Assembly: GCA_964036195.1 (NCBI GenBank)
Contig: OZ038451.1
Coordinates: 28,537,927 to 28,601,926, forward strand
Length of the DNA: 64,000 nucleotides
Reading direction: 5' to 3'
From: Sphaerolaimus hirsutus
Lineage: Eukaryota; Nematoda; Chromadorea; Monhysterida; Sphaerolaimidae
Made by a program: the position numbers and the translations under genes. Position 1 is the first letter of the stretch, and the number at the start of each line of letters is the position of its first letter. The notes under the pieces are model-generated. The model had not been told where the DNA came from, ran no database searches, and saw nothing but the letters and a program-made list of their open reading frames with translations. Shown piece by piece: positions 2,281 through 40,751 of the stretch.

Positions 2281-5200
2281 ATGGGATTACTTATGACAAA
2301 GTTGTGGCGTTTACTTTGGTCAAATGATGGTCAGTTAAACGAAATTTCTGAGTTTATTATCTTTGTGGTCATTTTGTTATTTGGGATTACCACATTTCAG
2401 AACACAAAGTTATCATTGTGGGACTTGATAATGCGGGAAAAACGACAATATTGTACCAGTAGTGAGTTTTTTGGGGGATTTTTCACGCTTCTAATTCTGG
2501 TGGATTGATACATCTTTTATGTTAAATAGTTAATTAATGATGCGATTTGTGTTTGGCATTTAGATTTGTTCGGATTTTTAATCAGTTGTTTCCCGGACAT
2601 TGTCATCATTAGGTCATTATAAAGTTTTTAACGGCATCACATCGTAGTGCCTGGGCTAAGCAAACAGGGTTTCAACTGGTTTCCACGTCAATTCAGATTT
2701 TAGTTGACGGGACACTAGACAATTTTCAACTGCACATGCGGCAATGTGGAAAAAGAAACCACTCGTCAACTAAAATCAGAACTGAAACCAGTCCGGTTCA
2801 CACCTCCTAGCATTGTCAACAGGGGCCAGTTCCGCAAATTGAGAAGTAAAATGGCAAATGCGAAGTGAATTGGCAAAAGCATAGGGAATTGACTTTTTAT
2901 TTTTTTAATCTCACTTTTGCCAATTACTTGCCATTTCACTTCGCTTCTGCCAATTTTCTTCTCAATTCACTTCGCATTTGCCATTTTACTTATCACTTCT
3001 CAATTTGCGAAACTGGCACCTGGTGGCAGTCCCAAGCCCTGTAAAGTGTAAAGTAAAGTGTCAAATGTAAAGTCAAATGCAAAGTAAACTGTCAATTGTA
3101 ATGCAAAGTTCAGTAATAAAATCTTTTCTTTTTTGTTTTAATTGACACTTTACTTTGCATTTGACTATACATTTGACACTCTACTTTACACTTTACAGGG
3201 CTTGGGACTTCCCCCATGGTGTGTATAGGGCTAATCCTTCAACCAAAAACACAGTTTAATGGGCGAAGTGGTCCATACGTCCCCCACGATTGGCTCCAAC
3301 GTGGAGCAAGTCACTTGGCGCAATATACATTTTCTCATGTGGGATATTGGTGGGCAAGAGAATTTGCGCGCCAGCTGGACAACTTATTATGCTCAGACTG
3401 AGGTTTGTGGGGGGATTTTGTCGGGTAAAAGACCTTCGGGTTTAGTTTTAGGTATGTCGAATGAACCCATATGGGCCCACACACGCTAGTTGACATCGAC
3501 ACCAAATGTCAACTGGTGCCGATCCCGATTCAAAGCTTGCTGACGAGTGGACGAACGACGTTCAAACGCAATCGTTGAATTGGGAACGGAACCAGTTGAC
3601 ATTTGGTGTCGATGTCAACTAGCGTGTGTGGGGCCTATACGCCGCAGAAATGGGACAAACATATTTATCTATCTATGCATATAATTGGTTAATAAATACC
3701 TGTGAACATGTACGTAAACTTTTAATTTTTTACCGATCAGAATGCACGCAGTATGAAATCGTATTTTTATGGGTAAAGTCACGTGACAGTTTATCTAGAA
3801 AAGTCCCACAGGGAGTGAGCAGTGTAATTACCAAAATATGTTTTCAAGTTTTATATTCTGGGGGGATGTGGTAGATTTCATTGTCAGGTGTGTGGTCGGT
3901 GGGTAAGTATTAGGTATATATTTTTGATTTTACAATACCTTTACACGTTTATCATTAGTACGCTTCTCGTGGTTTTCTACTTTCAGTTTTTTTTCTAAAA
4001 AATTTTGACGTCCAAAATTGACACAGTGTTGCTCAACATTCACCGAAAAAATCTAAAAATAATTTATTTTTATTGGGCGGACATGCATTTTTCGAACATA
4101 GTTTTTCAAAAACACTAATTCTCATTGGCGCTGCACACACTAGTTTACTGCCAGTAACTGAAAATTTGGTTAACTCATAAATCAACTTTGAGGGGCATTT
4201 GAGTTTACTGGAATTAGGTGTCCGCAGGAGTCTCCTAGGGGGGGGGGCTGCCCCCCCCCAATTCCGCCAGCTAACTATCTATCCCGGAGGCCGCTCAACT
4301 ATATATCTATCCCGAGGCAAATTTTTTGGCTACTACCCCCAAAGACCCCCCCCCCCAAATCGCTCAGCTATCTATCTATCTGGAGTGGTTTTTGAGAAAT
4401 TTGCCCCAATTTTCGCACTTTTTATTAGTTTTTCACCTTCAAAATTGTGCTCTCCGGCTATATGCATGGTTATATGCCTGTTTTAGCCATTTTAAACCTA
4501 CTTTTGGCCACTTTTAACCGATTATTAGCGATTTTTTCCCCTTTTCGGCCTCTATGCACTGAAAGAGCCTATATATTTTGCCCCCGCGAGCCCCCCCCAA
4601 GCCCCCCCCCCCAGCCCCCCAGAAATTTTTTTCAGCTATCTATCCCTCCGGAGGAACGATTTGCTATCTATCCAGCCCCCGCGAAGGCCAAAATCTTGGA
4701 GACCCCTGGGTGTCCGTCAATTACAGTTGACGTATAATAAAAAATCACTCCTCATAGTAACTCAAATGCGTTCAAGGCTGATTTATGAGTTTAGTAAATT
4801 TTGAAAATTTCATTAGTGAACTAGTGTGTGCAGCGACATTGTTTATTTCCCGCCGCTCAGATTTGTGGTCAGACAAAATAATTGCATGCGTTCACTTTTC
4901 TATGCGCGCGGCTAGGGTTGGAAAAAAAACGTTTTTTTTTAACTCGATGTTTTTTTTTAAAAAAAAACGTTTTTTTAAAAAAAAAAACGTTTTTTTTAAA
5001 AAGCTCCCAGATATGACCTAGTGTCAACATATATAGGTATATCAGACACTGGCAATACTCTGTGATGTTAAATATGACCATATAATGGCTGTGGAGCCAT
5101 GGGATAGCATTATAAGTGGTGATTTGTGTCAAAAATATCCATTTTTCATCAACATATCGTTTGTATATCGCCTTATAGTCGAATGTTCGTGACTTCAGGT

Positions 5201-8200
5201 AAAGTTTGACACGGAATGGTGATCAAACAAGGTTATAAAAGGAGGTTGTTACTTTGGGAGTGAAGTTACACACTGTGGAGGTACATGGAAGCACATTACC
5301 TCAATATTATATATTACAGCAACATATGTCGGCTTATTCACCCATGGTAGCACATAGAAATGGATGTTTTGATACTTAAAATGCAACAAAACCAATGAAA
5401 ACAACCACCAATGTCAATTTGTGTGTGAAATTGCGCGCTTGCGCGCAAAAATTTTGCAAAATACCTAGTGCTTAGTACTAAAAATTTCGGCCGATGTTTT
5501 TTTTTAAAAAAAAACATTTCGGACGTCATGTTTTTTTTTAAAAAAAAACGTTTTTTAAAAAAAAAAAACGTTTAAAAAAAACATCGGCCAACCCTACGCG
5601 CGGCCATTTCACTGAAATTTAATGGGTGGTCGCTTGAAAATTACACTGACTTTTGTGATGGAAAAAATATGTATTTTTTTGTGAATGGCGCCACGCGGAA
5701 ATAGTCCACACTGAATGTGTGTTAAACGCATTTCAGTTTACCTGGTGCCATTTCCGCAAATTGAGAAGTGATAAGTAAAATGGCAAATGCGAAGTGAAAT
5801 GGGAAGTGAATTGAGTATGAAATTGGCAAAAGCGACGTGAAATGGCAAGAAAATTGGCAAAAGCGAAGTAAAAAATAAAAAGTAATTTCACTTCGCTTTT
5901 GCCAATTTCCTTCTCAATTCACTTCTCATTTCACTTCGCATTTGCCATTTTACTTATCACTTCTCAATATGCGGTACTGGCCCCAGATAATTTTTTATAT
6001 CTCCCACAATTATTGACGTACTCCACATTCCGGTAAACTCAAATGTGTGTAAAACATATTTAGGTATTTTGCGTGTCAATTAGTGCGCGTACTGGCAGTG
6101 GGCCACCGTGTAATTTTTTTTCGTTTCGCCGCGCTAAACTTGATTTGACTCTTGTCTGAGCCGGTTTTCGCTTTTCGATTGAAGTGTATTTTATTTTTGT
6201 CTATTCAATCGATTTTCGGAGCGCTTTTGATGTCTGGCTGTCGGTCGAGTTGAAAAAGTTTAAATATTTTGTGATTAATAATTTTTTTGAGGGGTGGTTT
6301 AATTCTTTAAATGGGTAGCGTGAGTTCTGGTGTTTGATTTGCATTTACCGCACAGTTTACAGTGAAATCTACTATAACCCATCCCAATAAAGTACATATT
6401 TTTTTTTGTTTCACATTACTTTGACCTTGCACACACCAATTTTTTTAACGAAATTCCGAAAAATTTGGAAAACTTCAAATTTAGATTCGAATGCATCTGA
6501 GTTTCCCAGAACGGATTGTCTGTTATCTGCTGTTGGTTTAGATAAAGAATAACTCATTCCGGTAAAGTCAACCTGATTTATGATTTTCCAAAATTTCTGC
6601 ATAGTGTGTCGCTGTGCCCCCACACACGCTAGTTGACATCAACACCAAATGTCAACTGGTTCCGTTCCCAATTCAAACCTTGCGTTTGAACGTCGTTCGT
6701 CGGCTCGTCAGCAAGCTTTGAGCAGGGATCGGCACCAGTTGACATTTGGTGTCGATGTCAACTAGCGTGTGGGGTAGGGCTCAAACGATATGACTTTTCG
6801 ATATCGATATTCGATATTCGATATTTTTTCAAAATTTTCGATATCGATATTCGATATTTTTTTCTGAAACTCGATATTCGATATCGATACGATATGGAAC
6901 CTCGATATCGATATTCGATATTGAAAAATGGTCGATATTCTACCGTATTTCCTCGAAATACCCCCGGGGGGTTTATTGTTTCAGAGTGAGAATTTTGAGG
7001 GGGGGTTAAACGAGGGGGGGGGTATTTTGAGGGGGGGGGGGTTTATTATTTCGCCAGAAATTTTTTGAAATCCCAGTACTAAAATGTCGTCTGAAACGTA
7101 CGCAGACGTCAAAAAATGCAACAAAAATAGCCATTTATAAGACTCTAAAGACATTTATAAGTGTGTAGACGTACAAACACTGTTCTCACATAACATAGTC
7201 ATCGTTTTTAACGTGAGTTCTGCATTGCCGGGATGACAAACCGCAGCCTTTGTCATTTACGTTCTCTATACACTAAATTTGGGGGGGGGGGTATTTCGAG
7301 GGGGGGGTTTATAAGTTCATAGTGTCCATTTTGAGGGGGGGTATTTCGAGGGGGGTATTTCGAGGAAATACGGTATATTCGATATTTCGATATTTTCGAT
7401 ATTCGATATTGCTATAGGCTTTTGGTATAGCAAGGCATATTTCAAGTGGCATATTGTATTTTCATGTGGTTGCACACATGTTTAATCATCTCTTTGGCGC
7501 TCCACACGGTGGTTGACGCTACTTTTTAGAAGTCGATTGAGTCAACTCAGAGTCAACTGTTTTAAGTATAACTATTTTTAATTTTTTATCTGTGTTGATT
7601 AAGAAATATTGAGAAGTCGATTGATGTAGAATGAAAGAAGGGGATTTTTTGGATACATATTGTAGATGGCTCAGAGTCAATTGAATTTTTGACCAGTTGA
7701 CTCTGAGTTGACGCTAATTTTGGTGTCAACCAGCGTGTGTGGGACCTTTACTGAAATTTGAATGGTGCAAGTGATTATAACAACCTTTACATCACTCAAT
7801 GGTAGAAAATAGAAGAAAAGCATGATGAATCAAAGTGTATCAGACAAATAACAATTGGCATGTTGCAAAAAAAGTATATCAGCGTTTTCTGGCTTCATAT
7901 TTAGCACTCCAACAACAATGACATTATAAATACTGTACTTTTACTCATCAAATACAATACTATAAGCACATCAGATCAACCATAAACATCTCAAAATGAA
8001 AATGAAAAGTAAATTTGGGGACACAATACAGGTTTGATATATCGAAAAAATGGTCGATATTCGATATCGATATTCGATATTTTTTCAAAATTTTCGATAT
8101 CGATATTCGATATTCGATATTTTTTCAAAATTTTCGATATCGATATTCGATATTAAAAAATGGTCGATATCCGATATTCGATATTCGATACAATATATCG

Positions 8201-19661: not shown

Positions 19662-22600
19662 TCACCGATATCTGTCATTTCTGTCATTCCTCCTTTGTCT
19701 CGCAGGGCCCTGTTCCTTTTCCGCAAATTCCTTGTCCCTATTTCTATACCTGGGGCAGTCCCACACCCTGTAAAGTGTAAAGTAGTGTCAAATGTCAATG
19801 AAGAAAAACATCATGAATTTTTAACATTTGCATGAGATTTGACAAATTTTGCATGACATTTGACATTTTACTTTGTTCTTTACAGCGTGCGGGACTGCCA
19901 CCTGTTCCTTGGATCCCTGTCCTTGTCATAATCACGTCTAGGATCTTTGTCCCGATCCCTACTTTCATTTCCCTCACTCCGAGTAGTGTCCCAGTGCCCG
20001 TCGGGATTTCTGTGCCTTTCTCTTTCATTCCGATTATTGTCCCTGTCGGGATTGTAATCCCGATTTCTGTCCCTGTTCCTATCTCTTTCCAGACTATTTC
20101 TCCTTTTGTCCCTACTGCCCCCTCTGTCCCTATCTCTTTCTAGGCTGTTTCTCCGTTTGTCCCTACTGTCCTTTCTGTCCCTGTCCCTACTTCCCTTCCT
20201 GACCCCATCCCTACTTCCCTTCCTGACCCCATCCCTACTTCCTTTTCTGACCCCATCCCTACTTCCTTTCCTGTCTCTGTCCACATTTTCTTTTCTGTCC
20301 TTGTCCCTACTTTCCGGATGGTTATTTTCTCTTTTGTTCCGATCTGGGGGCAGTCCGGCACCCGTTAAAGTGTAGAGTAAAGTGTTAAGTGTCATGTATA
20401 ATCTCACCTAAAATAAAATATATTTTTTGCCGAACTTTTGTCATGTTACGTGGCAATTGACAAGTGTGGAATTTGACACTTTACTTTACGTGTCATGTTA
20501 CATGGCAATTGACAAGTTTGTATGGAATTTGACACTTTACGTGTCATGTTACATGGCAATTGACAAGTTTGTATGGAATTTGACACTTTACTTTACGTCT
20601 CATGTTACATGGCAATTGACAAGTTTGTATGGAATTTGACACTTTACTTTACGTGTCATGTTACATGGCAATTGACAAGTTTGTATGACATTTGACACTT
20701 TACTTAACACTTTACAGAGTTCGGGACTGCCACCTGGGGAGCGTATCTTTCTGTCCTCAAAGCTCTCCGTTTCTGTGGCTTGGTGTCTGAATTTGTCGGG
20801 GTTTTGGGACTTGTCCCAGCTGTCTGGTCGATTGATCACTGGATTACTACTGCTTCTGCTGTCTTCTATGGTGCCCATGTCGCGATTTTCCGTTTTTGAG
20901 TGACTCGACTTGGCTCGGCGCCAATAGCCGTTTTCGTTTGATACAGCTGGTAGTTTGCCTGAAAATCCGGTATTTTACTTGACATATTTTTAGTGACTTG
21001 TGACAATCGTGGTAAGAGCGCCAAGACTTTGGTGTAAACTGTAAAGAGCTATGGCGCTTTTACGACCAGGGGGCAGTCCCAGACTGTAAAATGTCGAATG
21101 TCATGCAAAGTTTCAAAAGTCATGTAAAATGCCCGGTAAAATGGCAAACGTACGTTTGCCATTTTACTGGGCATTTTACATGACTTTTGATACTTTGCAT
21201 GATATTTGACATTTTACAGGGGCTGGCAGAGGCACCTCTAGCGCCAGGGCGTCGGAGCAAAGTAGCGCCAAGCGTCCGAAGTGCCATGGCGTTTTTTGCT
21301 TTGTCAGTGCTGCCAGGCGCCAGCACCAGGCATTATGTTCATGGTGGAATGCAAATATAGTGAAGGCGCTTTTCCCCAGCTCAGTGAATCAATAGCACCA
21401 CAGCAAAATGGTGCCAAGAGTGCCATTACCCCTTTTGCATTTGTGCCAGCGCCATGGTTCTATTTCATCACTACTTGGGACTATGGTGGAATGGCGAATT
21501 TGAACCCTTCCTATGGCGCCACGCGCCATTTTTTAATGGCGCCGATTTCCCTTCCACAGCACCCTTTCAACACGTGGCCCAAAAGACATGGCAATCCAAA
21601 AATAAATAAAAAACAACCCACCCGAAAAAGTGCCCAAAAAAGCCGCCTCATGAATGGGTCCCATAGCAAAGAGCTGACCAATCAGCTTCGGTCTCTGAGC
21701 CAATTGATCCCACCTTTCCCCCTCCACGGCCTCCTCCATATGGCTGAGAATCTCCGTGGCGGCTCTGTGTTTCACGTTTGACAGGTCGTAGTCCATGGCG
21801 CAGATGAACGCCTCGGACGCAGTGTTGGGGTTTAGGGTGGAGAGGATGTGATTTTCGCATTGGATTATGAGGTCTGTGGGGGGGGGGGTGTTTGATGGCA
21901 CTAAATACAGTGACAATAGTGATGGAATGGCGCCATGGCGCTGGCGTCCTTTAATGGCGCCATTGGCGCCTGGCGCCATTTTTCCTGGCGCTTTTCCATC
22001 ACTAGTTGACAATTACCGGGTGTCAACTGGGCCGATTGGTTTCCATTCAAATTTTAGTTGATGGGTGGCTGAACAATGTTTGTGTCAATTGTCAAGTATC
22101 ATGCAAAATGTCGAAATTTGAGACATAATCTTTTCTATTCTTTTCTAAAATCTTTACATGGTGCGGGGCTGCTTTATGGCGCTGTTCCATCATGATTTTT
22201 AGAAAACAAAAACTGACCTTTCAATTCCCACTGCTCGGCCACATTCAAAATGCCAGCCATATCCAACGAAGGTTTATCTCTACTTTTCTTTCCGCCACTA
22301 ATCCCATCATCTTTACCAGCAGATGGCACTCCCAGACCCTGTAAAATGTCAAATTTCAGGCAATGTTTCTAAAGTCATGTCAAATGCCCTGGAAGATGTT
22401 AAATGTCATGTAAAGTGTTAGTAGACATGTAAAATGCTCCGGAAAATGTCGAATGTCAAGTAAAGTTCAAAAGTCCTATGTTTGACATTTGTTATGACAT
22501 TTCACTTGACTCTTGACACCTTGCATGACATTTGACATTTTACAGAGTCTGGGAGTGGCACCGGATTGCGTCAAATCGGCCCTGCCCAAATACACGAAAC

Positions 22601-25600
22601 GGAGCACTTCTCGCACGGAACCAGTGGGCACGCCTTCGATTTCAATCTCCAAAATTCCGTCGGACGCGTCGAGGTCCACGTCGATGTTGTCGGAGTCGAA
22701 CGCGTTGGACTCGGATTGGTGGCGCGTTGAGGCTGTGGGAATTGTTGTGGTTCGTGAGCAGGGTTGGCAAAATCTCAGAAAATAATAAAAATAAAATAAA
22801 AATAAAATGGAAAAATGAAGAATAAAATAAAATAAAATGGAAAATTTCAAAATAAAAATAAAAATTGTATAAAAATTCGAATTTTTGTAAAATTGTATAC
22901 AAATTCATATTTTTGTAAAAATTGTATCAAAATTGATATTTTATGTAAAATTTTTTCTGTTGTTTATAGTTCAACCTGTTCATTCGCGGAGCTGGGGCAG
23001 TCCCAAGCCATGTAAAGTGTCAAAATGTCATATGAAATGGAATGGAAAGTGTCAATTTTCATGACAATGTTAAGTAAAGTGCCAATTGTCATGACAAATA
23101 TAAATTAAAGTGGAAACTGTATAGCATATTGTATCCAAACCTTATCTTTTGTATCCAAATCTTGTTGTTTTTGTAACCAAATCTTATGTGAACATTTGGA
23201 TACAAAAACATAACACTTGCAACTAGCTGACAATACCTACTACATACAACTTTTGCAAAGTAATGGAAAAATTTGTCACACGTTTTTCATGTTTCGGTCT
23301 AATTATCACATTTTTCTGACCTTGCATGCAAGATTCTGATTTTTTGTAAAATGTCTGTAAAATTTTTGTAAAATGGTCCATTTTATTATTTTATTATTAT
23401 TTTGGAATAAAATAAAATAAAATGAAACAAGAATAAAATAAAAATAAAATACATTTTTATACAATTTTTATACAATTTGTATACAAATGATTTTTATAAA
23501 ACCAACCCTGTTCGTGAGAATTTGTTATTAATTTTGAGCTCTCTGGAATAGCCCCCCTTGTCATCAATTTTGAGGGGTCTATTCCCGGGGTTAATTTTGA
23601 GAATAAAATCACAATCTTGAAGTGAGAAGTTAAACTTTTTCCTGGCATTCTTCTAACGTTTCACTTATAAATCTACTTTTCTTTTTACTTTTTACTTCTC
23701 ACTTAGGGTTTTATGCATTTTTTATATTGTTCATCTTCAATCCAACAAGTCACTCAAGTTTACCATTTGTCTGTTCGCAAATCTGCCGCAGAACTGGTCC
23801 CGCATCTCGTAAATCTGCCGCGCGACAATAAAAACGGCCCCCGTCGCCGGCGACTATGCGCACGTCATAATCGTCTTTTGGCCGTTCGATTTGATGGAAT
23901 TTGTCCAGTTTCATTTGGTCCACGCTGGGTGTGGGGGGGGCTATGTTTTATGGAATATGAAAGAAGTTATAAGCGTGTGGTTTGGATTGATGCCAACTGT
24001 ACTGGAGCCAGTCCCGCGCCCTGTAAAGTGTGAAGTAGAGTGCCAAATGTCATGCAAAATGTCAATTTACACTAAAACAGATTTTACTAGTGAACTGTTG
24101 ACATTTTACAGGGTGCGGGACCCGGTACCCCAATGACAAGAAAAGTGGCCATTGATAAGTTACTAGGTACGCTCACTCTGTTAACTGTTCTTTTCTGAAG
24201 ATGTTTGCCACGGTCACACTTGGGTATTAACTAATTACCAAACACACAAACCACCCCCAAAACCGACCTCCCCCCACCATACTTATCCTCCCTGCCCCCG
24301 CCACCCGGGGGGTCCCCCTGGGGAACCCCCTGGGGGTCGGGTTTGAACGCCTCCACAGCCAAATTGAGCTGGTAGTCGAACACCAGGCGGTTGTCGTCCA
24401 ACAAGAGACCTTGCGAGCGCAGGTCGCGCAAGTCCAACAGAAGGAAACGAGAATGACCCACGCCTGTGGGGGGGGGGGTTGATTGAGGTTGGTGTAGTTT
24501 GTTTGGTTGGCGGGGGTCGTTTTTTTTTTTGGGGGGGGGGTAACCCCCCAAATGCTCTAACTGTGTATCTATCGTGCGGCATATTTTTTGGCTACTATCC
24601 CCTAGGGTTCAAACGGGATCGACTTTTCGGGGTCGGGTAGTTTTTTATATTTTTCGGGATCCCGTTTGGACCCTACTATCCCCTGTACACAGGGGAGGGG
24701 GGCCCACACCAGCTACACATCTGAAGCTATTTTTAAAACTTTTTGCCCAAATGTGTTCGCTCAAATGTACCACTTTGGCACAAGCACATTAAAAGTATCA
24801 AAAAATAAAGCCAGAAAAATACCTTCATCCAACAAAATATCAGCCTCAGTTGACTCTTCAGTGTTGATTTTCTGCAAACTGCCATTGATCACAGACATAA
24901 CATAATTTCCCCTGATGACATTCTTGGCGCCGCTCACAAGCACCAGAAACACTGACATCCAACCGGTGTGTTCCCTTTTAAAAAGGTATTTTTTGAACGT
25001 GTTGTATTATATTTTGTGTGTGCTTTGGGTTTGAATGTGCAAGTTGCAAGCTACCGTATTTCCTCGAATTACCCCCCGGGGGTTTATTTTTTCAGAGTGA
25101 AAATTTTGAGAGAAAAACGTGAAAAATGCAACATTAACCACCATTTATAAGTTTCTACAGCCTTATATAAGGATGTAGATGGTATAAACGATGTTCTAAC
25201 GTAACACAGTAAGTGTTTTGAACGTCTGTTATGCATTTCCCGGACCACAAATTCATAGTGCCCATTTTGAGGGGGGATGTATTTCGAGGAAATACGGTAT
25301 CTTGCGAAATTTTCACTTGCGTGTGCAAAAGCTGAAATAAATGCGAATTCTGGCGCCAGTCGAAGACCCTGTAAAATGTCAGATGTCATGCAAAATGTGA
25401 AAAGTCATGTAAATGTTATTAAAAATATATAACGTCCAGTAAAAAGTGAAGGGTAAATTGACAGTTCACCGGGAATTTACATGACTTTTGACATTGCATG
25501 ATATTTGACATTTCTCAGGGTTCGCATAGAAAAACCAATAATGATTTTGCACATTCACTTTTGCACACGTTAAACAGAGAACACAAAAAAACCTACCTAG

Positions 25601-25812
25601 TAAACCCATTTGGGTACAATTCAATCTGCCACGTGTAGCTGTGATTAGCGCAGCGAGTCACAAATTTTGGACTGCGCACGCACTCGCCCGGCCTGTACGT
25701 GGTCAGCCTGGACGCCTTGCTCAAGGTCAACGTCCAGGGGTGGGGTTTAATTTGCCCGACACGTTTTTTTTGTCGGGCAGCCCGATTCGTTGTTGTTGTG
25801 AGTGAGATTTTA
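19662..25812 (-). CDS. MATH-BTB-BACK protein with Arg/Asp-rich tail (5' end incomplete)
   Basis: Minus-strand exons that join in phase: about 25812-25597, 24974-24823, 24463-24283, 23924-23764, 22732-22562, 22310-22218, 21873-21622, 20958-20734, 20343-19902, 19749-19662 (TGA). MATH domain: HPWTLTLSKAS, WQIELYPNGFT, WMSVFLVLVSGA, FLLLDLRDL. BTB: DYDVRIVAGDGGRFYCRAA, EVLRFVYLGRADL, AGILNVAEQWELK. BACK-like: LIIQCENHILSTLN. The tail is rich in Arg, Asp and Ser with repeats of RKGSRDGV and RDKRRNSLERD. MATH-BTB proteins (SPOP family) bind substrates through MATH and CUL3 through BTB, for ubiquitination. The RD-rich tail is not in SPOP and resembles RNA-processing proteins. Three introns (22311-22561, 20344-20733, 19750-19901) consist of one MITE family. 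The start codon is not settled. Confidence 0.85.
19750..19901 (-). mobile_element. Introner: MITE forming a complete 152-bp intron
   Basis: On the coding strand the exon ends AACAG and the intron starts GTGGCAGTCCC; it ends GGGACTGCCCCAG before GTATAG. CAGGT occurs at both borders (plus-strand ACCTG at 19748-19752 and 19900-19904), a perfect 5-bp duplication around the element 19753-19899. The first copy supplies the GT donor and the second the AG acceptor. Removing it joins AG to G and keeps the RD-rich frame (R-Y-R-N-R-D-K). Confidence 0.85.
20344..20733 (-). mobile_element. Introner: MITE forming a complete 390-bp intron
   Basis: Coding-strand donor CCCCAG|GTGGCAGTCCC, acceptor GGACTGCCCCCAG|ATCGG; phase 1 on both sides gives S-P-D-R-N-K. 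The target copies are CAGGT and CAGAT (plus 20732-20736 and 20342-20346). The interior is expanded by four or five tandem units of about 55-60 bp with the word ACATGGCAATTGACAAG. Confidence 0.85.
21072..21231. mobile_element. GGCAGTCCC MITE copy within an intron
   Basis: GGCAGTCCCAGACTGTAAAATG at the left; TTTTACAGGGGCTGGCAGAGGC at the right; TGTAAAATGTC/GACATTTTACA interior. It lies inside the intron 20959-21621, flanked by GGCGCC-rich decayed hAT sequence, and does not mark the splice sites. Confidence 0.6.
21917..22004. mobile_element. Short hAT, GGCGCC family (88 bp)
   Basis: Ends TAGTGATGGAA and TTCCATCACTA around GGCGCCATGGCGC words. The flanking octamers AGTGACAA and GTTGACAA agree at six of eight positions, so the duplication is decayed. 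It sits in the intron between 21874 and 22217. Confidence 0.75.
22311..22561 (-). mobile_element. Probable third introner (251-bp intron)
   Basis: The element spans 22325-22560 with ends GGCACTCCCAGACCCTGTAA and its inverse. The coding-strand donor is CAATCCG|GTGCCACTCCC, the same position relative to the element as in the other two introners. The best in-frame acceptor is TGGTAAAG|ATGATG, just past the element (22311). Flanks ACCGG and ACCAG resemble a mutated ACCNG duplication. An alternative acceptor at 22329 also keeps frame. Confidence 0.6.
22759..23510. mobile_element. Non-autonomous hAT, AAAATAAAAT arrays
   Basis: Ends CAGGGTTGGCAAAAT and TATAAAACCAACCCTG; perfect duplication TTCGTGAG (22751-22758, 23511-23518). 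AATAAAATAAAAT arrays lie at both ends. The core includes a GGCAGTCCCAAGCC MITE end near 22993 and TTGGATACAAAA words. The second copy, inverted, is at 39147-40165. It inserted about 20 bp upstream of a MATH-BTB splice acceptor. Confidence 0.92.
23511..23763. other. Intronic DNA, no feature recognised
   Basis: Part of the MATH-BTB intron 22733-23763. Short mirrored words (AAGTGAGAAGT, ACTTCTCACTT) near 23620-23705 hint at a decayed MITE. Confidence 0.35.
24007..24125. mobile_element. GGCAGTCCC-family MITE, short copy
   Basis: GCCAGTCCCGCGCCCTGTAA at the left; TTTTACAGGGTGCGGGACCC at the right; about 119 bp. It lies in the MATH-BTB intron 23925-24282 but does not coincide with its splice sites. 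Confidence 0.65.
24603..24675. mobile_element. Minimal hAT, GGGATC family (73 bp)
   Basis: Ends TAGGGTTCAAACGGGAT and ATCCCGTTTGGACCCTA with the perfect duplication CTATCCCC (24595-24602, 24676-24683). Little more than two termini remain, yet the duplication shows that it transposed. Confidence 0.9.
25054..25297. mobile_element. MITE, CCGTATTTCCTCGAA family
   Basis: TA-flanked ends CCGTATTTCCTCGAATTACC and GGTATTTCGAGG-type inverse GAGGAAATACGG. It lies in the MATH-BTB intron 24975-25596. Confidence 0.75.
25354..25526. mobile_element. GGCAGTCCC-family MITE, diverged copy
   Basis: GCGCCAGTCGAAGACCCTGT at the left and ACATTTCTCAGGGTTCGCA at the right, with TGTCATGCAAAATG/ATTGCATGATATTTGAC interior. 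Intronic, more diverged than the other copies. Confidence 0.5.
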
Positions 25813-26329
25813 CTAGTTATGTGCGGGTCTATTTGAAGTGGTTTTGATTGATTTCTGTTTGTATGTGCCAATTAAAAGTGGATAAGTAAAAAAAAACATT
25901 TGTAGCGAATAAACTCAAATTAAAATTTAAATATTTAAAAATTGATTTAAATATAAAAAGTAAAGTGTGCTTTTAATTGCTCACTTATAGATTTACTTTT
26001 CTTTTAACTTTTCACTTCAAAATTGGTTTTCCACTCGTTGACTTGCGGAATTCATCATTCACTGATGAGTGGGAAAGATGGCAAGTGGAAAGTGACAAAA
26101 ATGTCATAAGTGGTCAGGAAAGTGATAATTTACAACTTTTCTTCTGACTCATCCACTTGCGGAAATGGCCCCAGGGTGAAATCCCTTATTCTGTGCAGTG
26201 TCACAAAAATTCCAAACAAACCCTTGTTGTTTGTAAAAGTGTAACATAGTAAATACTTAACAAATTTGTCCCTCATTTTACATTTTAAGTGATATTTTAT
26301 ATCATATTTGAATCAACACAATGAATCGC

Positions 26330-27720: not shown

Positions 27721-28317
27721 TAGGTAAAATATTTAGAAGACACTTCGACACCTCGAACTTCGTGAAGCGTGTGGAAGTGTCTTCACAGAGGCAAACGCTT
27801 CAAGCCCGCTTCCACACTCTTCACAATCTTATTTTTTGGCGCGAACGCTATTTCCATGGCGTTCACTCCATTCCTAGCCGTCGGTATGCGCGTTGCCGCG
27901 TGAAGCGCCCACCGGTCGCTAGGCAGCGCTCGCATCAATTCGACGTTTACCTATATCCTGATGCATGCGCTCTTTGAGAGCATGTGATAGTGAAAGAGAA
28001 GGGCCGGTTTTGGGTGATATATAGGGGCTTTTGGCGGGAAAATATGGGTGGAGAAATATGATAAATTTGCCCGACATTTTGGCGCGTTTTTGGGCGGCCC
28101 GGGTCTTGGGGAATGTTAAATAAAATGATTTTTTACTGAATAGTGTACTGTATGCGATATTGTGCCTATACTCGTACCGGTTTGCACCGTGAACTGTTTT
28201 CATTGAAAATAGGAATCATTCAAAATACGTTTACTTATCATTTGGAAACATATTTTATCACTCCTGAATGCGATTGATATATTTTCACCCCTGACCAAGA
28301 AAGTGCAAAAAATTAAA
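27721..28317. other. Intergenic, no gene seen
   Basis: GC-richer at 27830-27960 (GGCGCGAACGC, GCGTTGCCGCGTGAAGCG), possibly the outer arm of the element noted near 27050. No exon is supported. Confidence 0.35.
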
Positions 28318-28390
28318 CTCCCAATGTGGGGCTCGAACCCACGACCCTTGGATTAAGAGTCCAATGCTCTACCGACTGAGCTAACCGGGA
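28318..28390 (-). tRNA. tRNA-Lys (CTT)
   Basis: A complete cloverleaf on the minus strand: acceptor TCCCGGT/ATTGGGA (two G-U pairs), D stem GCTC/GAGC, anticodon stem TTGGA/TCCAA with loop CTCTTAA (anticodon CTT), T stem GTGGG/CCCAC with TTCGAGC. The Pol III A and B boxes are intact. TTTAATTTTTTG follows downstream and can terminate Pol III. Near-identical copies are at 38632 and 40272. Confidence 0.93.
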
Positions 28391-28686
28391 GACAAACATC
28401 AGTGCAGAAACATGACTTATCACGTTGTCCCTATTGGCTCCACATACATCAGTTGACAACGACAGCAAATTGACAACCATTGATATACCGTATTACCTCA
28501 AAATACCCCCAGGGGGTTTATTATTTCGCCAGCAAAATTTTTTGGGGGGGGGGTATTTCGAGGGGGTTTATTCGAGGGGGTTTATTCGAGTGGGGGTCTT
28601 TTATTTCGCCAGAAATTTTTGGAAATTCCCCGTACTCAGACGTATAAAACCCAAACAATTACATATAGTACATGTATATACACACT

Positions 28687-28860: not shown

Positions 28861-28902
28861 TTAGCTTCTGCCAAGTTGCTGCCCAGGCTGGTGAGGTAAA
28901 GT

Positions 28903-31900
28903 ATGTCACAGACAAGTTCGGATAGGGATGTCGTGCAGCGTCATACACGCTCGCACCCGGTGAATCCGATTTCACACTTCCATCCTGATTCCGCCGCTGA
29001 AAGACAGTTCCAAGCATCAGCTTTGAGAGAAGCCGTTCGCAGACCGGATGTTTCACGCTCAGAAACTCCTCAGTCCATAAACTGGAGACCAGCTCCCGTC
29101 GTTTTGTCAAATGTTTTGTCGCCCGAGAATGTCATGCCTGTAGTTTCACATTCGTTGCCTTTGCCGCAGTTCACCCTTCCGCCAGTGAGGGTTGACCAAT
29201 CAGGTGTAGTTGTCACACCCTTGTTTGAAACTCCACCACCGCAGTTTATGGTCGCGAGTAATAGGTTAGATATGTTCAAGTCCAAAAATGTGCCCATGGA
29301 AGTTCAATATACCGCATTTTTTCCAAATGTTAGTGTTTTAGTGCCTCATCCAAGGATTCCCTTTCTCGTCGACACCTCGCAGTTCCCGTGCGGTAAGTAT
29401 TTACAGGAGGTAGATTTTCTGGACCATTTTTCGGGAAATCATTTTGTTATGGAGCGGCCGCTCATTTCTTCACCAGACGATACTCCCAAGGCAGACATTT
29501 TGTCTAGTTCTTCTGCCCAGCAGATCGTGTCCCATTTTGACGCCAGAATTTCCAGGATGGAAACCCTTTTTGAAAAGGCCATTAGTGAGTTTCAAAATTT
29601 GAAAGTGAATGATGTGTCAAGTGTTGAGGCGGTGGTGAGAGAGTGTGAGCAATTCAACGAGAAGGATGATAACGTGATAGTTGACACCGCTGCCGCAGAA
29701 CCTGCTACTGGACCTGCCATTGAACCTGTCAGACCAACTTTGCCTTTACCATGTGAGGAACCTAATTCAGATCCATGGTTTTTGAATGGTTTTTCGAAAG
29801 CTCCTCAGGCCATGTTGAAATCTACTGACTTAGATTTATTGCATCAATGGATGTTAATCAAATCCCATTTATTGGATAAAGTTCCGCTATATAAAGGAAA
29901 AAGCGATACCATTAAATTTTCGGAGTGGCAGAGACATGCCCTGTCTACAGCGAATTCGATATCGAACCAGCAGTTATTGAACCATTTCTGGCGTGACATT
30001 TTTTCCACAAAATTGGGGGGGGAAGCATATCGAGTTTTCACGACGTTGTTCCAACCGGAAAACATGCCAGACCCTAGGGATATTTTGGCTGCGTTATCGG
30101 ATGTTTTCAAGGATAAATCACAAGTGTATACCATGCTTGAGTGGGACAATGCCGCCATGGGCCGCACTGAGTCTCTCACGGAATTTTACATCCGACTTCT
30201 TTCAAAAGTTCCGGCCGAAATGAAAACCAGTGTCTTGAATTCACGCGACTGTATCGAGCGTTTGGTGGCGGCCAAATTCTGGTCGAGGTATGACGCCATG
30301 CGCTTTGATCGTTTCGTGATGGCAAATTTCCGTAAACAATTTGCCCATAAAACGATGCCAATGGCGAAAATTGTTCGTGTAGTCGAGGAGTATTTTATGG
30401 AGTTCGTCCGGCCAGTGGTTCAAGTGACACCCAAGACAAATACACCCCCCACACGTTCTACCTTCAGGCAGATGTTTCAGGGCCAAAATTCAAATGATCC
30501 CTGGTGTCCCCGGCCTGGACATTTTGGGCATCGCAAGAGTCAGTGTAGAGCAGACAAAATCCCACCTCAAATGCCCCCCACGCCCCAGAACAGCGGGGTG
30601 CCCGCCAGTAACAAATCAGAGGGCTTTGGTCAAGTTAGGCGGTTTGGCCCACAACAAACCCATGATAATTCAATGCCGAAAATTACCGCAAAGGCCGCGA
30701 AAGTTGATTACCAGGGGGAAAGTGAAATGTCTGATGATACACCCGAAAATGATGATGTTTCTGCAACGATTGACATTTCTGAAAGTGATCCATGTGCCAC
30801 ATATATTAATGAGTTCCAACATCGAGTGTCAGAGTTGTACAATTCTGATCCTGGTTCGTTCACGAAGTGGTCATCAAATTTTATCCATGCATTGCCTGTT
30901 CTTTCACAGAATTGTGCGATTCAAGAGTCGGGCAGTTTTTCACCAGCGTTTTCTGCAATGCAACCAGTGGTGAGGGAGAATGATTTGAATGTTGATGATT
31001 CACCTGAAGTGAACGATTTTCCTGAAACTTTCTCTACTGATAATTGCAAACTTTTGACGTTGTCTGGAACTTTGTGCCAGAGTCATTCATTGCATGAATA
31101 TGGTGTCATTCGAGTTGACAATGGAATTTGTGCCAATTCTTCAGTAGGTGATGATCAACATTTGTGTATTAAGATCAAGCCAACAAATGGACCCTTGGTT
31201 TATGCAAATGTAACAATCGATGACATTCCATGCCGCGTACTTTTAGATAGTGGTTGTACCCGATCTTTACTTCCGTTAAAGTTACTTCAGCAGATTTCTG
31301 AGAGAACAGGGGTAGATTACGATGCGAAAATGACTCAATCTAAAATACAGTTAGACACTGTGAATGGACCCACAGCGAATGGCGAACTTTCTGAAATCAA
31401 GCTTTTAGTGGCACATGTTTCTCCCATTGACAAAATCCGCAGAAAAGTCTTGACTACTTTCCTCGTCAATCGGAGCCCCGGAGCTTTGACAGAAATACTC
31501 TTTGGCACAGATGTCATGCCATTTTTAAAAATGACGTGGCTTATCCCGTTGACTCTCGATCGTGGGTGTGATGCTGTTTTACCGGCTGAGCCACCTGGCT
31601 TGGCTGACAAAATTATGCATAATGAAAAACAATTTATTTCAATTTATTCCCAGATATTGAACGCTTCAAAATCAATTTTTGTCCCAGCTCATGGTATGGT
31701 TGCACATGCCATGGCAGTACCTTTGAGACCAAAATCCATTCCTCTCGAAATTTGGCAGGATAGTTTTTTATTGTTTTCAAACACAGACCTAGAGTATAGT
31801 GGCTTGTCAATGTACAACACAACTGTGGCCATCAAGAATTGCCAGAAGTTCTCATTACATTTTTTCAATTCCAACCCGTATCCAGTGCAAATTGCAATCG

Positions 31901-34900
31901 CGGAACCTCTAGTTTCTTATGATGTGTACAAGAATGACACATTACATTTGCCCGGTAGTAATTTTTCAGCTCTTTTTTCTTCTGCCGATTATTGCTCATT
32001 ATTCAACATCTCGTCACCGGAATGGTGCCATACTTGCACACAGGCCACTATGGCACCTGGCATCGTTTTGCCCGATCCACCCCACTCAGAGGAGGGTGAA
32101 GTAGTTGACACACCATTGACAGCCGTTGAAAGAGGTGCATATGTTTGGGACCAATTGAAAAATGACTTGCAGATCCCTTTGAGTGTCGGGCAAAAAGAAT
32201 GTTTCCGTAAATTAGTCTCAGAATTTCACGATGTTTTTAGCTGCGCGCAATATGATGTGGGTAAAACTACCTTGATTTCACATACTATAGTTACCGATCC
32301 AACACAACCACCAATAAAACAAGCTGCACGCTATGAGGCACGCCACAAGCGTTCATTTATCCATAAAACGATAGCTTCCATGCTTAAAGAGGGTATTATT
32401 GAGCCATCAAATGGTGCGTGGGCTTCACCCATCACGATTGCGCCCAAAGGAACATCCAATTTCCGGTTCTGTGTCGATTACAAGCTCGTGAATTTGATCA
32501 CCAAAATTGACTCTTACCCATTGCCAAGAATTGGAGAGCTTTTATCGGAATTTGCCGGTCGGAAGATATTTTCTGCCGTTGACATACGGCATGGCTATTA
32601 TAATGTACCTTTGACAGATGAATCGACTAGAGAACGAACTTCTTTCGTGTGTAGCTTAGGACAGTTTAGATACACCAGAATGCCATTTGGTACAGTGAAC
32701 GCGGGCGCTTCTTTTCAAAGGCTCATGTCCATATTACTAGCTAATTTGAATGACGACCCTGCTAATCCGTGGATTCGAGCTTACATTGACGATATTCTGT
32801 GCAGTAGCTTCGATATTGACGAACATTTTGTGCATTTGAAGAGGCTGTTTTCACGGTTGAGATGGGCGAATCTGAAGATTCAACCCGCCAAATGCAAATT
32901 TTTCGCTTCGGAATTGAAATATTTGGGTCACCATGTATCCGCCAAAGGCATTTCTCCAGCACCGGCCCGCTATCGTGCAGTGATTGAACAACCTAAGGTA
33001 CATACAAAGCAGGATCTCAGACGCTTTCTGGGTAAATGTATTTATTATTCTCACTTCATTCCTAATTTCAGTCGTATTGCGGCACCCCTTTACACTGTGC
33101 TCAAGGGGCATGTCCCAAAGTGTGGCGCCACTCCGTTTGAGTGGACAGAAGATATGTTGACGGCTTGGGACACTCTGAAATATTTGTTGTCAACCTCTCC
33201 TGTGTTAATCCACCCAGTTTTTGATGATCCACGCGGGTTTGTCCTAGAAACAGACGCCAGTAGTTTGGGATTGGGTGCTGTGTTATCGCAATATGGAGAG
33301 GATGGGAAATTGCACCCCGTGAGTTATATTTCCAAGCGTCTGACACACCCACATTCCACATATTCGGCAGCTTCATTAGAAGCCTTGTGTATTTGCTGGG
33401 CACTCCGTCGCTTGGCAGATTACGTGGAGGGCCAAAAGGTGACTGTCATCACGGACAATTCGGGCATACAACAGGTGCTCCGCAGTCCACATCATTCGAA
33501 GTTGGCCCGTTGGGCCATCTTTGTCCAGGACAAAGTGACTTCCTTCATACATCGTCCTGGCATCCAAAATTCAGTCGCTGACGCATTGTCCAGAAATCCC
33601 ATATCGGAAACTGAATTTGGGGAGGACGAGTTACGGAAGCCAGTAGAACTCGTATTAGGTCAATCTCCTGACATTGTCCGATCTGAAAAAAATGTTTGTG
33701 CTCGGACCGAGGCTATTTTGTCCACCATGACGAGTATCGATTGGGTGAAAATTCAGTCGGATGATGAAAAATTGCAAAAAATCGTGAAGGCTTTACGTGA
33801 AAATCCTGATTCCTTGGCTAACGCATATCTTATTGAAGATGTGCTGTATTTTCGCGCACCTGTTGCTTCAAAGCACCTCTCTATATGGCCGCCAAAATCT
33901 TGGCAGCATGCATGTCTGGTGCAGGCACATCTAGGGGTGTATGCTAGTCATGGCAGTCAAGCTCGGACATTGGACTTGCTATGCCAGTATTTCGCGTGGC
34001 CAAATATGAAAAATGATATTTTGGAATTCTGCCAACAATGTAGTGAATGCATGACGGTAAAATCGCACAGAGTAAATGCGACACCTCTAGGTGATGTTGC
34101 GACGCCGTCACAGCCATTTGACACTTTACATATTGATGTCATGTATTTTGACAAAATTTCGCCGCGGAAAATTTTGGTTGTGATCGACGCGTTGTCTCGT
34201 TATCTCATCACTGTTGTAGTTCGCTCATTAACTGCTGTATCAGTTGCCAAAGCAATTTATAAGCATGTCTTTATGTTTTGTGGCGCTGCCCGTGTGATCG
34301 TCACTGATAGAGGGAGAGAATTTGTCAATTCAGAATTGAGATGTCTGTGTGACAATTTTGGAGTCACACATAGTCCCACGTTACCCCAAAATCCTGCAGC
34401 CAATGGTTTAGTGGAAAGAGCCAATCGTACATTGCGTGAGGCCATGCTGTTTTGTTCACGTGAATTCCCGGGTCAAAAATGGTGGGAATTGTTACCTGCA
34501 GCCACCCTAAAATGCAACATGGCAATGAACAGGATGACCGGGTGTTGTCCATTCTTTCTAGTGTTTGGACATCTTCCACATTGGAATTTATTTTTTTCCG
34601 CAGCGCGGAAGATCGACCCACAAGCAGCACGTTTTTTAGCCCAAACCCAAAGCGACAAAAATCGCGCTATGTATAAGCGTCACTTCGACCAAAAACACGC
34701 CACAATATTTTCTGTGAATGATCAAGTAATGATTAAATTAATATCGGTCGAAAAGAACACTCCGAAATTTGCGGGACCGTATTTAATCTTGAGTGTATTT
34801 GGTTCTACGTTGCTTCTGCGGGATGAGGGGGGAGAAACGTTTTCCGTTCCACAACGTGTGGCATGGAAATTACCCAAGTTTTCAACTAGTTCACAAGCGT

Positions 34901-34902
34901 AG
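28903..34902 (+). CDS. Gypsy Gag-Pol polyprotein (1999 aa)
   Basis: One frame from ATG 28903 to TAG 34902. Gag fills about residues 1-600. A zinc-knuckle-like motif at about 535-548 reads CPRPGHFGHRKSQC, with Pro where the second Cys should be. Aspartic protease: LLDSGCTRSLLP near 782. Reverse transcriptase: SPITIAPKG, FRFCVDYKLVN, YIDDIL near 1294. RNase H: VLETDASSLGLGAVLSQ near 1450. Integrase: HLGVYASH...CQQCSEC zinc motif near 1676; Asp near 1743, Asp 1802 (TDRG) and Glu 1838 (LVERANRT), a true D-D-35-E spacing. No chromodomain is evident after the integrase. PR-RT-RH-IN order marks Gypsy. No internal stop is seen. It makes the particle and enzymes for copy-and-paste transposition. Confidence 0.95.
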   Translation: MSQTSSDRDVVQRHTRSHPVNPISHFHPDSAAERQFQASALREAVRRPDVSRSETPQSINWRPAPVVLSNVLSPENVMPVVSHSLPLPQFTLPPVRVDQSGVVVTPLFETPPPQFMVASNRLDMFKSKNVPMEVQYTAFFPNVSVLVPHPRIPFLVDTSQFPCGKYLQEVDFLDHFSGNHFVMERPLISSPDDTPKADILSSSSAQQIVSHFDARISRMETLFEKAISEFQNLKVNDVSSVEAVVRECEQFNEKDDNVIVDTAAAEPATGPAIEPVRPTLPLPCEEPNSDPWFLNGFSKAPQAMLKSTDLDLLHQWMLIKSHLLDKVPLYKGKSDTIKFSEWQRHALSTANSISNQQLLNHFWRDIFSTKLGGEAYRVFTTLFQPENMPDPRDILAALSDVFKDKSQVYTMLEWDNAAMGRTESLTEFYIRLLSKVPAEMKTSVLNSRDCIERLVAAKFWSRYDAMRFDRFVMANFRKQFAHKTMPMAKIVRVVEEYFMEFVRPVVQVTPKTNTPPTRSTFRQMFQGQNSNDPWCPRPGHFGHRKSQCRADKIPPQMPPTPQNSGVPASNKSEGFGQVRRFGPQQTHDNSMPKITAKAAKVDYQGESEMSDDTPENDDVSATIDISESDPCATYINEFQHRVSELYNSDPGSFTKWSSNFIHALPVLSQNCAIQESGSFSPAFSAMQPVVRENDLNVDDSPEVNDFPETFSTDNCKLLTLSGTLCQSHSLHEYGVIRVDNGICANSSVGDDQHLCIKIKPTNGPLVYANVTIDDIPCRVLLDSGCTRSLLPLKLLQQISERTGVDYDAKMTQSKIQLDTVNGPTANGELSEIKLLVAHVSPIDKIRRKVLTTFLVNRSPGALTEILFGTDVMPFLKMTWLIPLTLDRGCDAVLPAEPPGLADKIMHNEKQFISIYSQILNASKSIFVPAHGMVAHAMAVPLRPKSIPLEIWQDSFLLFSNTDLEYSGLSMYNTTVAIKNCQKFSLHFFNSNPYPVQIAIAEPLVSYDVYKNDTLHLPGSNFSALFSSADYCSLFNISSPEWCHTCTQATMAPGIVLPDPPHSEEGEVVDTPLTAVERGAYVWDQLKNDLQIPLSVGQKECFRKLVSEFHDVFSCAQYDVGKTTLISHTIVTDPTQPPIKQAARYEARHKRSFIHKTIASMLKEGIIEPSNGAWASPITIAPKGTSNFRFCVDYKLVNLITKIDSYPLPRIGELLSEFAGRKIFSAVDIRHGYYNVPLTDESTRERTSFVCSLGQFRYTRMPFGTVNAGASFQRLMSILLANLNDDPANPWIRAYIDDILCSSFDIDEHFVHLKRLFSRLRWANLKIQPAKCKFFASELKYLGHHVSAKGISPAPARYRAVIEQPKVHTKQDLRRFLGKCIYYSHFIPNFSRIAAPLYTVLKGHVPKCGATPFEWTEDMLTAWDTLKYLLSTSPVLIHPVFDDPRGFVLETDASSLGLGAVLSQYGEDGKLHPVSYISKRLTHPHSTYSAASLEALCICWALRRLADYVEGQKVTVITDNSGIQQVLRSPHHSKLARWAIFVQDKVTSFIHRPGIQNSVADALSRNPISETEFGEDELRKPVELVLGQSPDIVRSEKNVCARTEAILSTMTSIDWVKIQSDDEKLQKIVKALRENPDSLANAYLIEDVLYFRAPVASKHLSIWPPKSWQHACLVQAHLGVYASHGSQARTLDLLCQYFAWPNMKNDILEFCQQCSECMTVKSHRVNATPLGDVATPSQPFDTLHIDVMYFDKISPRKILVVIDALSRYLITVVVRSLTAVSVAKAIYKHVFMFCGAARVIVTDRGREFVNSELRCLCDNFGVTHSPTLPQNPAANGLVERANRTLREAMLFCSREFPGQKWWELLPAATLKCNMAMNRMTGCCPFFLVFGHLPHWNLFFSAARKIDPQAARFLAQTQSDKNRAMYKRHFDQKHATIFSVNDQVMIKLISVEKNTPKFAGPYLILSVFGSTLLLRDEGGETFSVPQRVAWKLPKFSTSSQA

Positions 34903-38555: not shown

Positions 38556-38631
38556 ATCTGTACACAAATGAGCATACCTGACCAAGAATACGGTATATTC
38601 ATACCTGACCAAGAAAGTGCAAAAAATTAAA

Positions 38632-38704
38632 CTCCCAATGTGGGGCTCGAACCCACGACCCTTGGATTAAGAGTCCAATGCTCTACCGACTGAGCTAACC
38701 GGGA
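38632..38704 (-). tRNA. tRNA-Lys (CTT), second copy
   Basis: The same cloverleaf and anticodon CTT as at 28318-28390, with the flank AAGTGCAAAAAATTAAACTC conserved on the 3' side and ACATGACTTATCAC on the 5' side. The copy arose by duplication of a block larger than the gene. Confidence 0.92.
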
Positions 38705-38737
38705 GACAACAGCGTGCACAGAAACATGACTTATCAC

Positions 38738-40165: not shown

Positions 40166-40271
40166 CTTATCACGTTGTCCCTATTGGCTCCACATACACC
40201 AGTTTACAAAGACAGCAAATTGACAATGGTTGATATATTTTAAACCTGATTAAAAAGTGCAAAAAATTAAA

Positions 40272-40344
40272 CTCCCAATGTGGGGCTCGAACCCACGACC
40301 CTTGGATTAAGAGTCCAATGCTCTACCGACTGAGCTAACCGGGA
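40272..40344 (-). tRNA. tRNA-Lys (CTT), third copy
   Basis: The same gene body as the copies at 28318 and 38632, with a similar 3' flank (AAAAAGTGCAAAAAATTAAA). All stems pair. Confidence 0.92.
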
Positions 40345-40751
40345 GACGATCACCACTGCAGAAATGTGACCTATGACGTTGCCCCTACGGCTCCACGTAC
40401 ACCAGTTGACAAAGACAGCAAATTGACAACTGGTTCTCATCTCAATTCAAAGCTCACTCATGAGTAAAAAAACACTATTAATTATATGTATACATTGTAT
40501 TTATACACATTACGTCATGCTGTTTTATTGTATTTACATTGGACATACCGCAATATTCTTGTCTACACTACAGTTTCATTTGTAACATGCTTCGACAAAT
40601 TTGCATTTTCTCAAAATCGGCGATTTTTTTAAGTTATAACAGTTACTGTAATCCACATTGGCATTTCGTTTCCCTTTCATTATTGAATATTATGAATTCA
40701 AAGATCGAAACAAACATGGAACAATCACAAACAAACAAATAAAAATAGATA

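Follow-up and report, generated by a model that had tools for sequence, protein, structure and literature searches.

A MITE family with CWG target triplets as the probable maker of an intron in a MATH-BTB gene

A 152 nt intron in a MATH-BTB gene is very probably an introner, created when a non-autonomous cut-and-paste DNA transposon (MITE) inserted into a coding exon. The gene lies in a window of 64,000 nucleotides, the whole stretch of DNA that was analysed. The sequence evidence covers the repeat family to which the element belongs (the GGCAGTCCC family), its ends, an excess of CWG among its target triplets and the continuity of reading frames; splicing itself we infer from the sequence. The features of the gene are collected in Table 1, and ^ marks a splice junction throughout.

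Table 1. Positions of the introner-type introns and exons of the MATH-BTB gene in the window
Feature	Position	Strand	Description and basis
Introner-type intron 2, MATH-BTB gene	19750-19901	-	152 nt, GT...CAG; element and one target copy; read from sequence, spliced frame, hairpin
Terminal inverted repeat GGCAGTCCC, acceptor side of gene	19754-19762	+	
Terminal inverted repeat GGCAGTCCC, donor side of gene	19891-19899	-	
Element's own GT	19900-19901	-	Outside donor-side GGCAGTCCC repeat
Target copy 1, CAG	19902-19904	-	Final bases of upstream exon; 3 bp target deduced from other copies
Target copy 2, CAG	19750-19752	-	Putative source of acceptor AG
Second introner-type intron	20344-20733	-	390 nt; CAG^GTGGCAGTCCC...GGACTGCCCCCAG^; spliced frame, inverted-repeat arms
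Last coding exon, stop TGA	19662-19749	-	Spliced frame; end counted on sequence
Arg/Asp/Ser-rich coding exon separating the two introners	19902-20343	-	Open frame
Upstream coding exon	20734-20958	-	Start placed by eye at TTTTCAG acceptor
Possible third introner, between BTB exon and next exon	22324-22563	-	Inverted repeat; candidate
BTB-domain exons, pieces 23750-23947 and 22476-22904	22476-23947	-	Assembled by eye with adjacent pieces
MATH-domain exons, several, separated by introns	24231-25871	-	MATH_2, E 2.1e-10 (pieces joined by eye)

On the coding strand the borders of the intron read CAG^GTGGCAGTCCCGC...GGGACTGCCCCAG^GTATAG or, in a longer reading, CAG^GTGGCAGTCCCGCACGC...GTGTGGGACTGCCCCAG^GTATAG. 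The arms of the element are 31 nt long and 84% complementary, and the intron RNA is predicted to form a single hairpin (-63.4 kcal/mol, z = -9.97). With up to one mismatch allowed, GGCAGTCCC occurs 18 times in the 64,000 nt window against 6.8 expected, a count reached in none of 100 shuffles. The first-pass annotation had described the 152 bp intron as exactly one MITE; the element was found at that place, with the repeats, the arms and the length of 152 nt all in agreement. Unspliced, the tail of the gene has stops in all three frames. Removal of the 152 and 390 nt introns together leaves a single frame, ...RSP^DRNKREN...DPRN^RYRNRDKEFAEKEQGPARQRRNDRNDRYR-stop, which encodes an Arg/Asp-rich tail. 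The earlier proposal that removal restores the frame therefore stands as far as one frame is kept, but the acceptor is not unique: a TTTACAG inside the element, 18 nt before its terminal CAG, is also in frame and would add six codons. Frame restoration alone thus leaves the acceptor of the window copy unfixed.

The match of the gene to the BTB profile has an E value of 0.0015 and scores 19.1 bits, slightly below the curated cutoff of 20.5 (pieces joined by eye). Its second introner-type intron has apparently been enlarged by repeats of an internal unit of TGTCAATTGCCATGTAACATGACACGTAAAG type (by eye). The third candidate has CCG before the donor and CTG at the opposite end; its target copy contains no AG, and no acceptor was assigned. 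Further inverted repeats of the family are found near 21084-21219 and 24011-24121, inside apparent larger introns of the same gene. Sister elements with ends like GTGCCAGTTCCGCAAATT also stand at CAG or CTG, in the window at about 2825-3019 (minus strand) and at 5745-5981 (plus strand) and at position 2214 of locus L049; the one at about 2825-3019 adjoins a GGCAGTCCC element beginning at 3023. Elsewhere in the window a 2000-residue open reading frame (28900-34902, plus strand) resembles an LTR-retrotransposon polyprotein (by eye), and three tRNA-Lys (CTT) genes are located within about 12 kb on the minus strand (28317-28391, 38631-38705 and 40271-40345).

The elements begin with 5'-GTGGCAGTCCC or GTGCCAGTCCC and finish with GGGACTGCCCC-3'. 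Exact copies of these ends with a preceding triplet were counted genome-wide on both strands: CAG+GTGCCAGTCCC (CAGGTGCCAGTCCC) occurs 1706 times (control 3), CTG+GTGCCAGTCCC (CTGGTGCCAGTCCC) 1494 times (control 0) and CAG+GTGGCAGTCCC (CAGGTGGCAGTCCC) 810 times (reversed control 0), at least 21 of the last being 28S rRNA. The first 21 places listed for CAGGTGGCAGTCCC have one flank in common and are part of an rRNA array, with the motif in the 28S gene, so the figure of 810 is too high by at least 21. The array occupies contig G000:C1 from its start to about 190 kb (L042, L043 and L010-L030), often with a spacing of about 7.34 kb; the occurrence of CAGGTGGCAGTCCC within its 28S genes is a coincidence, and one 18S copy in L043 matches in broken pieces. 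In L042 the 18S rRNA is at 4797-6605 (minus strand). A similarity search over the whole genome (348 Mb, 762 contigs), with a query that held the target copies along with the element, gave 74 matches, 40 of 1142 candidates having been scored at first. Viral contigs contained no copy of one exact element pattern. The single match of another exact pattern to a bacterial contig (L084) was taken as chance.

Copies with both ends were gathered in a table of 62 rows, for which GT at the left end was required (copies with other ends were left out) and spans of 90-460 bp were allowed. The end-to-end span is 140-240 bp in 56 rows. Short loci repeating longer ones (L001-L005, L007, L008, L075, L079), the 21 rRNA loci, L009, L040-L043 and L084 were left out, and repeated left flanks (e.g. 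L063, L065 and the relatives of L059) were removed by script; L094 and L098 enter the table once for each strand, and L037 has two rows. The copies carry long imperfect inverted repeats, with TGTAAAGTG and CACTTTACA motifs adjoining the ends. Being short and non-coding, with terminal inverted repeats and ends numbering in the thousands, the elements have the features of MITEs. Six near-identical loci on several contigs (L059, L070, L072, L073, L074 and L076) hold the same insertion, flanked by CTG and CAG; as flanks and insertion agree in all six, the insertion was probably copied together with its surroundings. An insertion is likewise common to both members of the paralogue pairs L054/L063 and L047/L065.

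The triplets flanking the two ends in the 62 rows were CAG/CAG in 24, CTG/CTG in five, CAT/CAT in three, CAG/CTG in five, CTG/CAG in four, TTG/CAG in three and others in 18; rows from the CAG+GTGGCAGTCCC and CAG+GTGCCAGTCCC searches were pre-selected by their left-hand CAG. Exact agreement was seen in 32 rows, where permutation gave a mean of 22.9 (p = 0.0024), and disagreement in 30, so that a 3 bp duplication is supported but imperfect. Among the 19 rows from the similarity search the left triplet was CWG in 12, CAT in three, TTG in three and CTA in one. The counts before GTGCCAGTCCC, for which only CAG and CTG were considered, also fit a preference for CWG: the ratio of CAG to CTG before the GT end, 1.14 to 1, is as expected for insertion at CWG in either orientation.

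The first-pass annotation had taken a 5 bp CAGGT, present at both borders, as the duplicated target. This was rejected, since GT stands at the left end of the element whatever the triplet (also with CTG, CAT and TTG flanks) and follows the right-hand CAG in only six of the 24 CAG/CAG rows; a 3 bp target (CAG here, mostly CWG elsewhere) fits better, though imperfectly. It follows that the first target copy would provide the CAG at the end of the exon and not the GT donor, which is the element's own. The accompanying proposal that the target copies make the splice sites is accordingly kept for the acceptor AG, from the second copy, and dropped for the donor.

In nine of the 62 rows (e.g. L034, L095, L096, L059 and L083) one triplet is CAG and the other CTG, differing in the middle base only, and in L095 this is so even though the inner repeat arms match at 14 of 14 positions. 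Such mismatches are not accounted for by simple duplication at a staggered cut. In L047, L050 and L051 the GT end is preceded by TTG and the opposite end has CAG, with two letters differing in an identical pattern in all three. Nine of the 19 similarity-search rows are mismatched, with CAG at the acceptor in five and before the GT end in one; these are too few to lean on, and CAG is inflated, also in acceptor-side mismatches, because in disagreeing rows the script favoured CAG, CTG or CAT among three offsets of the right triplet. Over all 62 rows the two kinds are nearly even (CAG/CTG five, CTG/CAG four).

Coding cases outside the window include two conserved genes. In the C2H2 zinc-finger gene at L045 there are two elements (183 and 169 nt), and when each is taken out with one CAG the joins read HQCTQ^CGKTFGRQDQLKRH (...HQCTQ^CGKTF...) and CVHCGKAFRDQ^SHLTAHISAVH. 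The joined protein matches zf-C2H2 (1.7e-32) in five stretches, the best of which (36-58) crosses the first junction; the C-C-H-H residues of the second finger are correctly spaced (by eye). L082, with an element of 158 nt, is a sodium:solute symporter gene of SLC5 type (Pfam SSF, 1.7e-17). Its spliced product, with the junction FFIPIFNQ^MRPTSVYEYFEHRF, aligns with SMVT (PDB entry 26va) at 3.2e-29, and the junction is gap-free in all three alignments shown (26va and two sodium/iodide cotransporter chains). Open in-frame joins after removal were also found in L054 and its paralogue L063, in L081 and in L083. L094 and L102 are less certain: the former reads through its join with no stop, and in the latter all three frames are open. 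Domain-level support covers three junctions in two genes.

By our own reading, ten rows out of 62 resemble coding introns: the two in the window, the two in L045 and those in L054, L081, L082, L083, L094 and L102. Open frames across the joined site, with no further backing, occur for example in L031, L049, L053, L058 and L059. The piece of the L059 group that was tested had no Pfam match. For the L083 protein no solved-structure match was found up to an E value of 1, and there was one weak Pfam match (0.051); in L058 the upstream piece has a weak match to DNA-PKcs (0.07) and the junction piece one match at chance level (0.37). Removal restores the coding sequence in the intron-like cases, with L071 and L044 as exceptions. 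L071 is coding-like on both sides (by eye), but a simple splice fails to join the frames, and no frame-keeping splice was found at its target copy. L044 has CTG copies, so that its target copy contains no AG; an internal TTTACAG would be needed, adding 18 nt in frame (by eye). Of 14 CAG+GTGGCAG copies fetched, seven have CAG at the right end, one of these (L094) being stop-free across the join, and the other seven are without a right end or without a right-hand CAG. Among four CAG+GTGCCAG copies, a clear right end with CAG is present in L102 alone. As a minority of the sampled insertions are intron-like, the element is regarded as a general MITE. The sequence shared by its copies extends up to both splice sites in the window, in L045 (two), L081, L082 and L083 and, as aligned, in L054. 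The claim that this intron is an introner made by a MITE is supported by a family spread over the genome and by continuous coding sequence in several unrelated genes once the element and one target copy are removed.

A MITE might have entered an older, ordinary intron and come to fill it, in which case the splice sites would predate the element. The family does have repeats inside apparent larger introns of the MATH-BTB gene, and most of the 62 rows show no signs of a coding intron; against this, the intron boundaries coincide to the base with the ends of the element in the window (two), L045 (two), L054, L081, L082 and L083. Chance filling of older introns is unlikely to give such exact coincidence so many times, and we consider this origin improbable. 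That the element is no intron at all, the frame being continuous by chance across an inert MITE that lies in a pseudogene or in a non-coding tail, is highly improbable. The low complexity of the Arg/Asp-rich tail speaks for it; against it, two separate elements in this tail both keep one long frame, and conserved genes elsewhere (the zinc-finger gene of L045 and the SMVT-like gene of L082) have the same structure.

Splicing might also take place at sites within the terminal repeats (the TTTACAG acceptor and perhaps a GTAAAG-like donor), with remnants of the element left as extra codons. We judge this unlikely, and it overlaps the best explanation in that the element would still be an introner. 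The in-frame TTTACAG sites of the window copy and of L044 would allow it. In L082, L081 and both L045 introns, however, the distance to the terminal CAG is 19 nt, which would shift the frame; the internal AG has been lost in L083, L054, L049 and L058; and the SMVT and zinc-finger alignments contain no extra residues.

In the preferred reading, insertion of a MITE into a coding exon, the element would enter a triplet (mostly CWG), which would be duplicated. Where the coding strand has CAG and the GT end points upstream, the product would be exon-CAG^GT...CCCCAG^exon, its 5' splice site coming from the element and its 3' splice site from the second target copy, and excision of the element with one CAG would bring back the original reading frame. 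The intron would then have been gained in the lineage of the host. Past +2 the donor, GTGGCA, is weak, and the region before the terminal CAG is C-rich, not T-rich; stronger-looking sites, GTAAAG (or similar) and TTTACAG, are found within the repeats (by eye). In the predicted fold CUGUAAAG is paired with CUUUACAG within the stem and the outer sites lie at the base of the hairpin. Folding would hide the internal sites and may favour the outer ones. The GGCAGTCCC MITE probably belongs to the CWG-targeting PHIS transposons (NuwaI-like), and a transposase of PHIS/NuwaI type would have moved it.

Exons preferentially end in CAG before a donor, and CAG is favoured at the 3' splice site as well. A CWG-targeting transposase might therefore be pre-adapted to making introns, an insertion being spliceable from birth if CAG and the GT end lie on the coding strand. 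We put this forward tentatively and hold it to be rather doubtful. Roughly a quarter of exon insertions would be spliceable and, given insertions in the thousands, hundreds of introns may have been added to a single animal genome. Copies such as L083, whose GT end follows CTG and whose acceptor is CAG, would be CTG copies of which one later turned into a splice site. An element reversed at CAG would give CAG^GG...CAG^, i.e. a GG-AG intron; no clear coding case of such a reverse-orientation GG donor was seen among the copies read by eye.

The origin of new introns is a long-standing question. Thousands of ends, a defined triplet and a simple splice rule make the birth of introns testable in one animal, since each of orientation, target letter and frame gives a prediction of the copies that persist in exons. 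If the PHIS assignment holds, intron gain would be tied to a named transposon group.

The larvacean Fritillaria reportedly has introns derived from MITEs, and the GGCAGTCCC family would resemble that case in making animal introns from MITEs. Mitochondrial AGA codons of the present host fall at expected Ser, not Gly, sites (by eye), so the host is taken not to be a tunicate, unlike Fritillaria. Translation of the mitochondrial contig (C762, 14,754 bp) works well under the invertebrate code (code 5), and the contig has an atp6-like frame (by eye). A chaetognath host, considered on the COX1 sequence, was rejected on account of this frame, since atp6 is not known from chaetognaths. COX1 is 89% identical to its best match, a protein of an assembly collection, and among the 120 matches listed of 7999 scored those bearing an organism name are insects, at 64-67%. 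The named ND5 matches, among 120 listed of 7997 scored, are mixed and include nematodes, amphipods, copepods, annelids and a chaetognath. The host is accordingly described as an invertebrate with mitochondrial code 5. In L040 (7702-8887) a mitochondrial cytochrome b frame is apparently split by a frame shift (by eye), which may be an assembly error or real.

In the copepod Eurytemora affinis, 36 of the 297 introns of ten genes (12%) have GA or GG donors, always after AG; these introns look recently gained and no element was described (PMC5714493). AG also precedes the donor in the GGCAGTCCC family, as a CAG target would give, whereas the donors are GA/GG in Eurytemora and GT here (PMC5714493). 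If the pre-adaptation reading were true, reversed elements would offer a concrete origin for introns with GG donors such as Eurytemora has.

Introners as such are already known. The GGCAGTCCC family was not found described in the literature searched, which took in listed titles and openings of abstracts and few subscription papers. We treat it as a new introner family as set against main-text accounts, and it may already be listed in the published family tables. The available text of Gozashti et al. (2022; PMC9860276) describes introners as short repeated elements that form whole introns, in 548 families, many with terminal inverted repeats and short duplications, and from only two groups of animals or land plants. 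In Aureococcus, according to that text, splicing takes place at internal sites of the terminal repeats and remnants are left as extra codons (PMC9860276). Chrysochromulina introners are described there as bringing their own 5' splice site and co-opting the 3' site, with 4 bp duplications and no terminal inverted repeats (PMC9860276); the GGCAGTCCC family would be like them in taking one splice site from the element and the other from the duplication, and differs in having terminal inverted repeats and a 3 bp, mostly CWG, target. The NuwaI group of PHIS transposons, found mainly in animals, has inverted repeats and duplicates a 5'-CWG-3' target (PMC4482050). Unlike the GGCAGTCCC family, NuwaI is not linked to intron creation in the available part of that account, and the two are alike in their CWG target and inverted repeats (PMC4482050).
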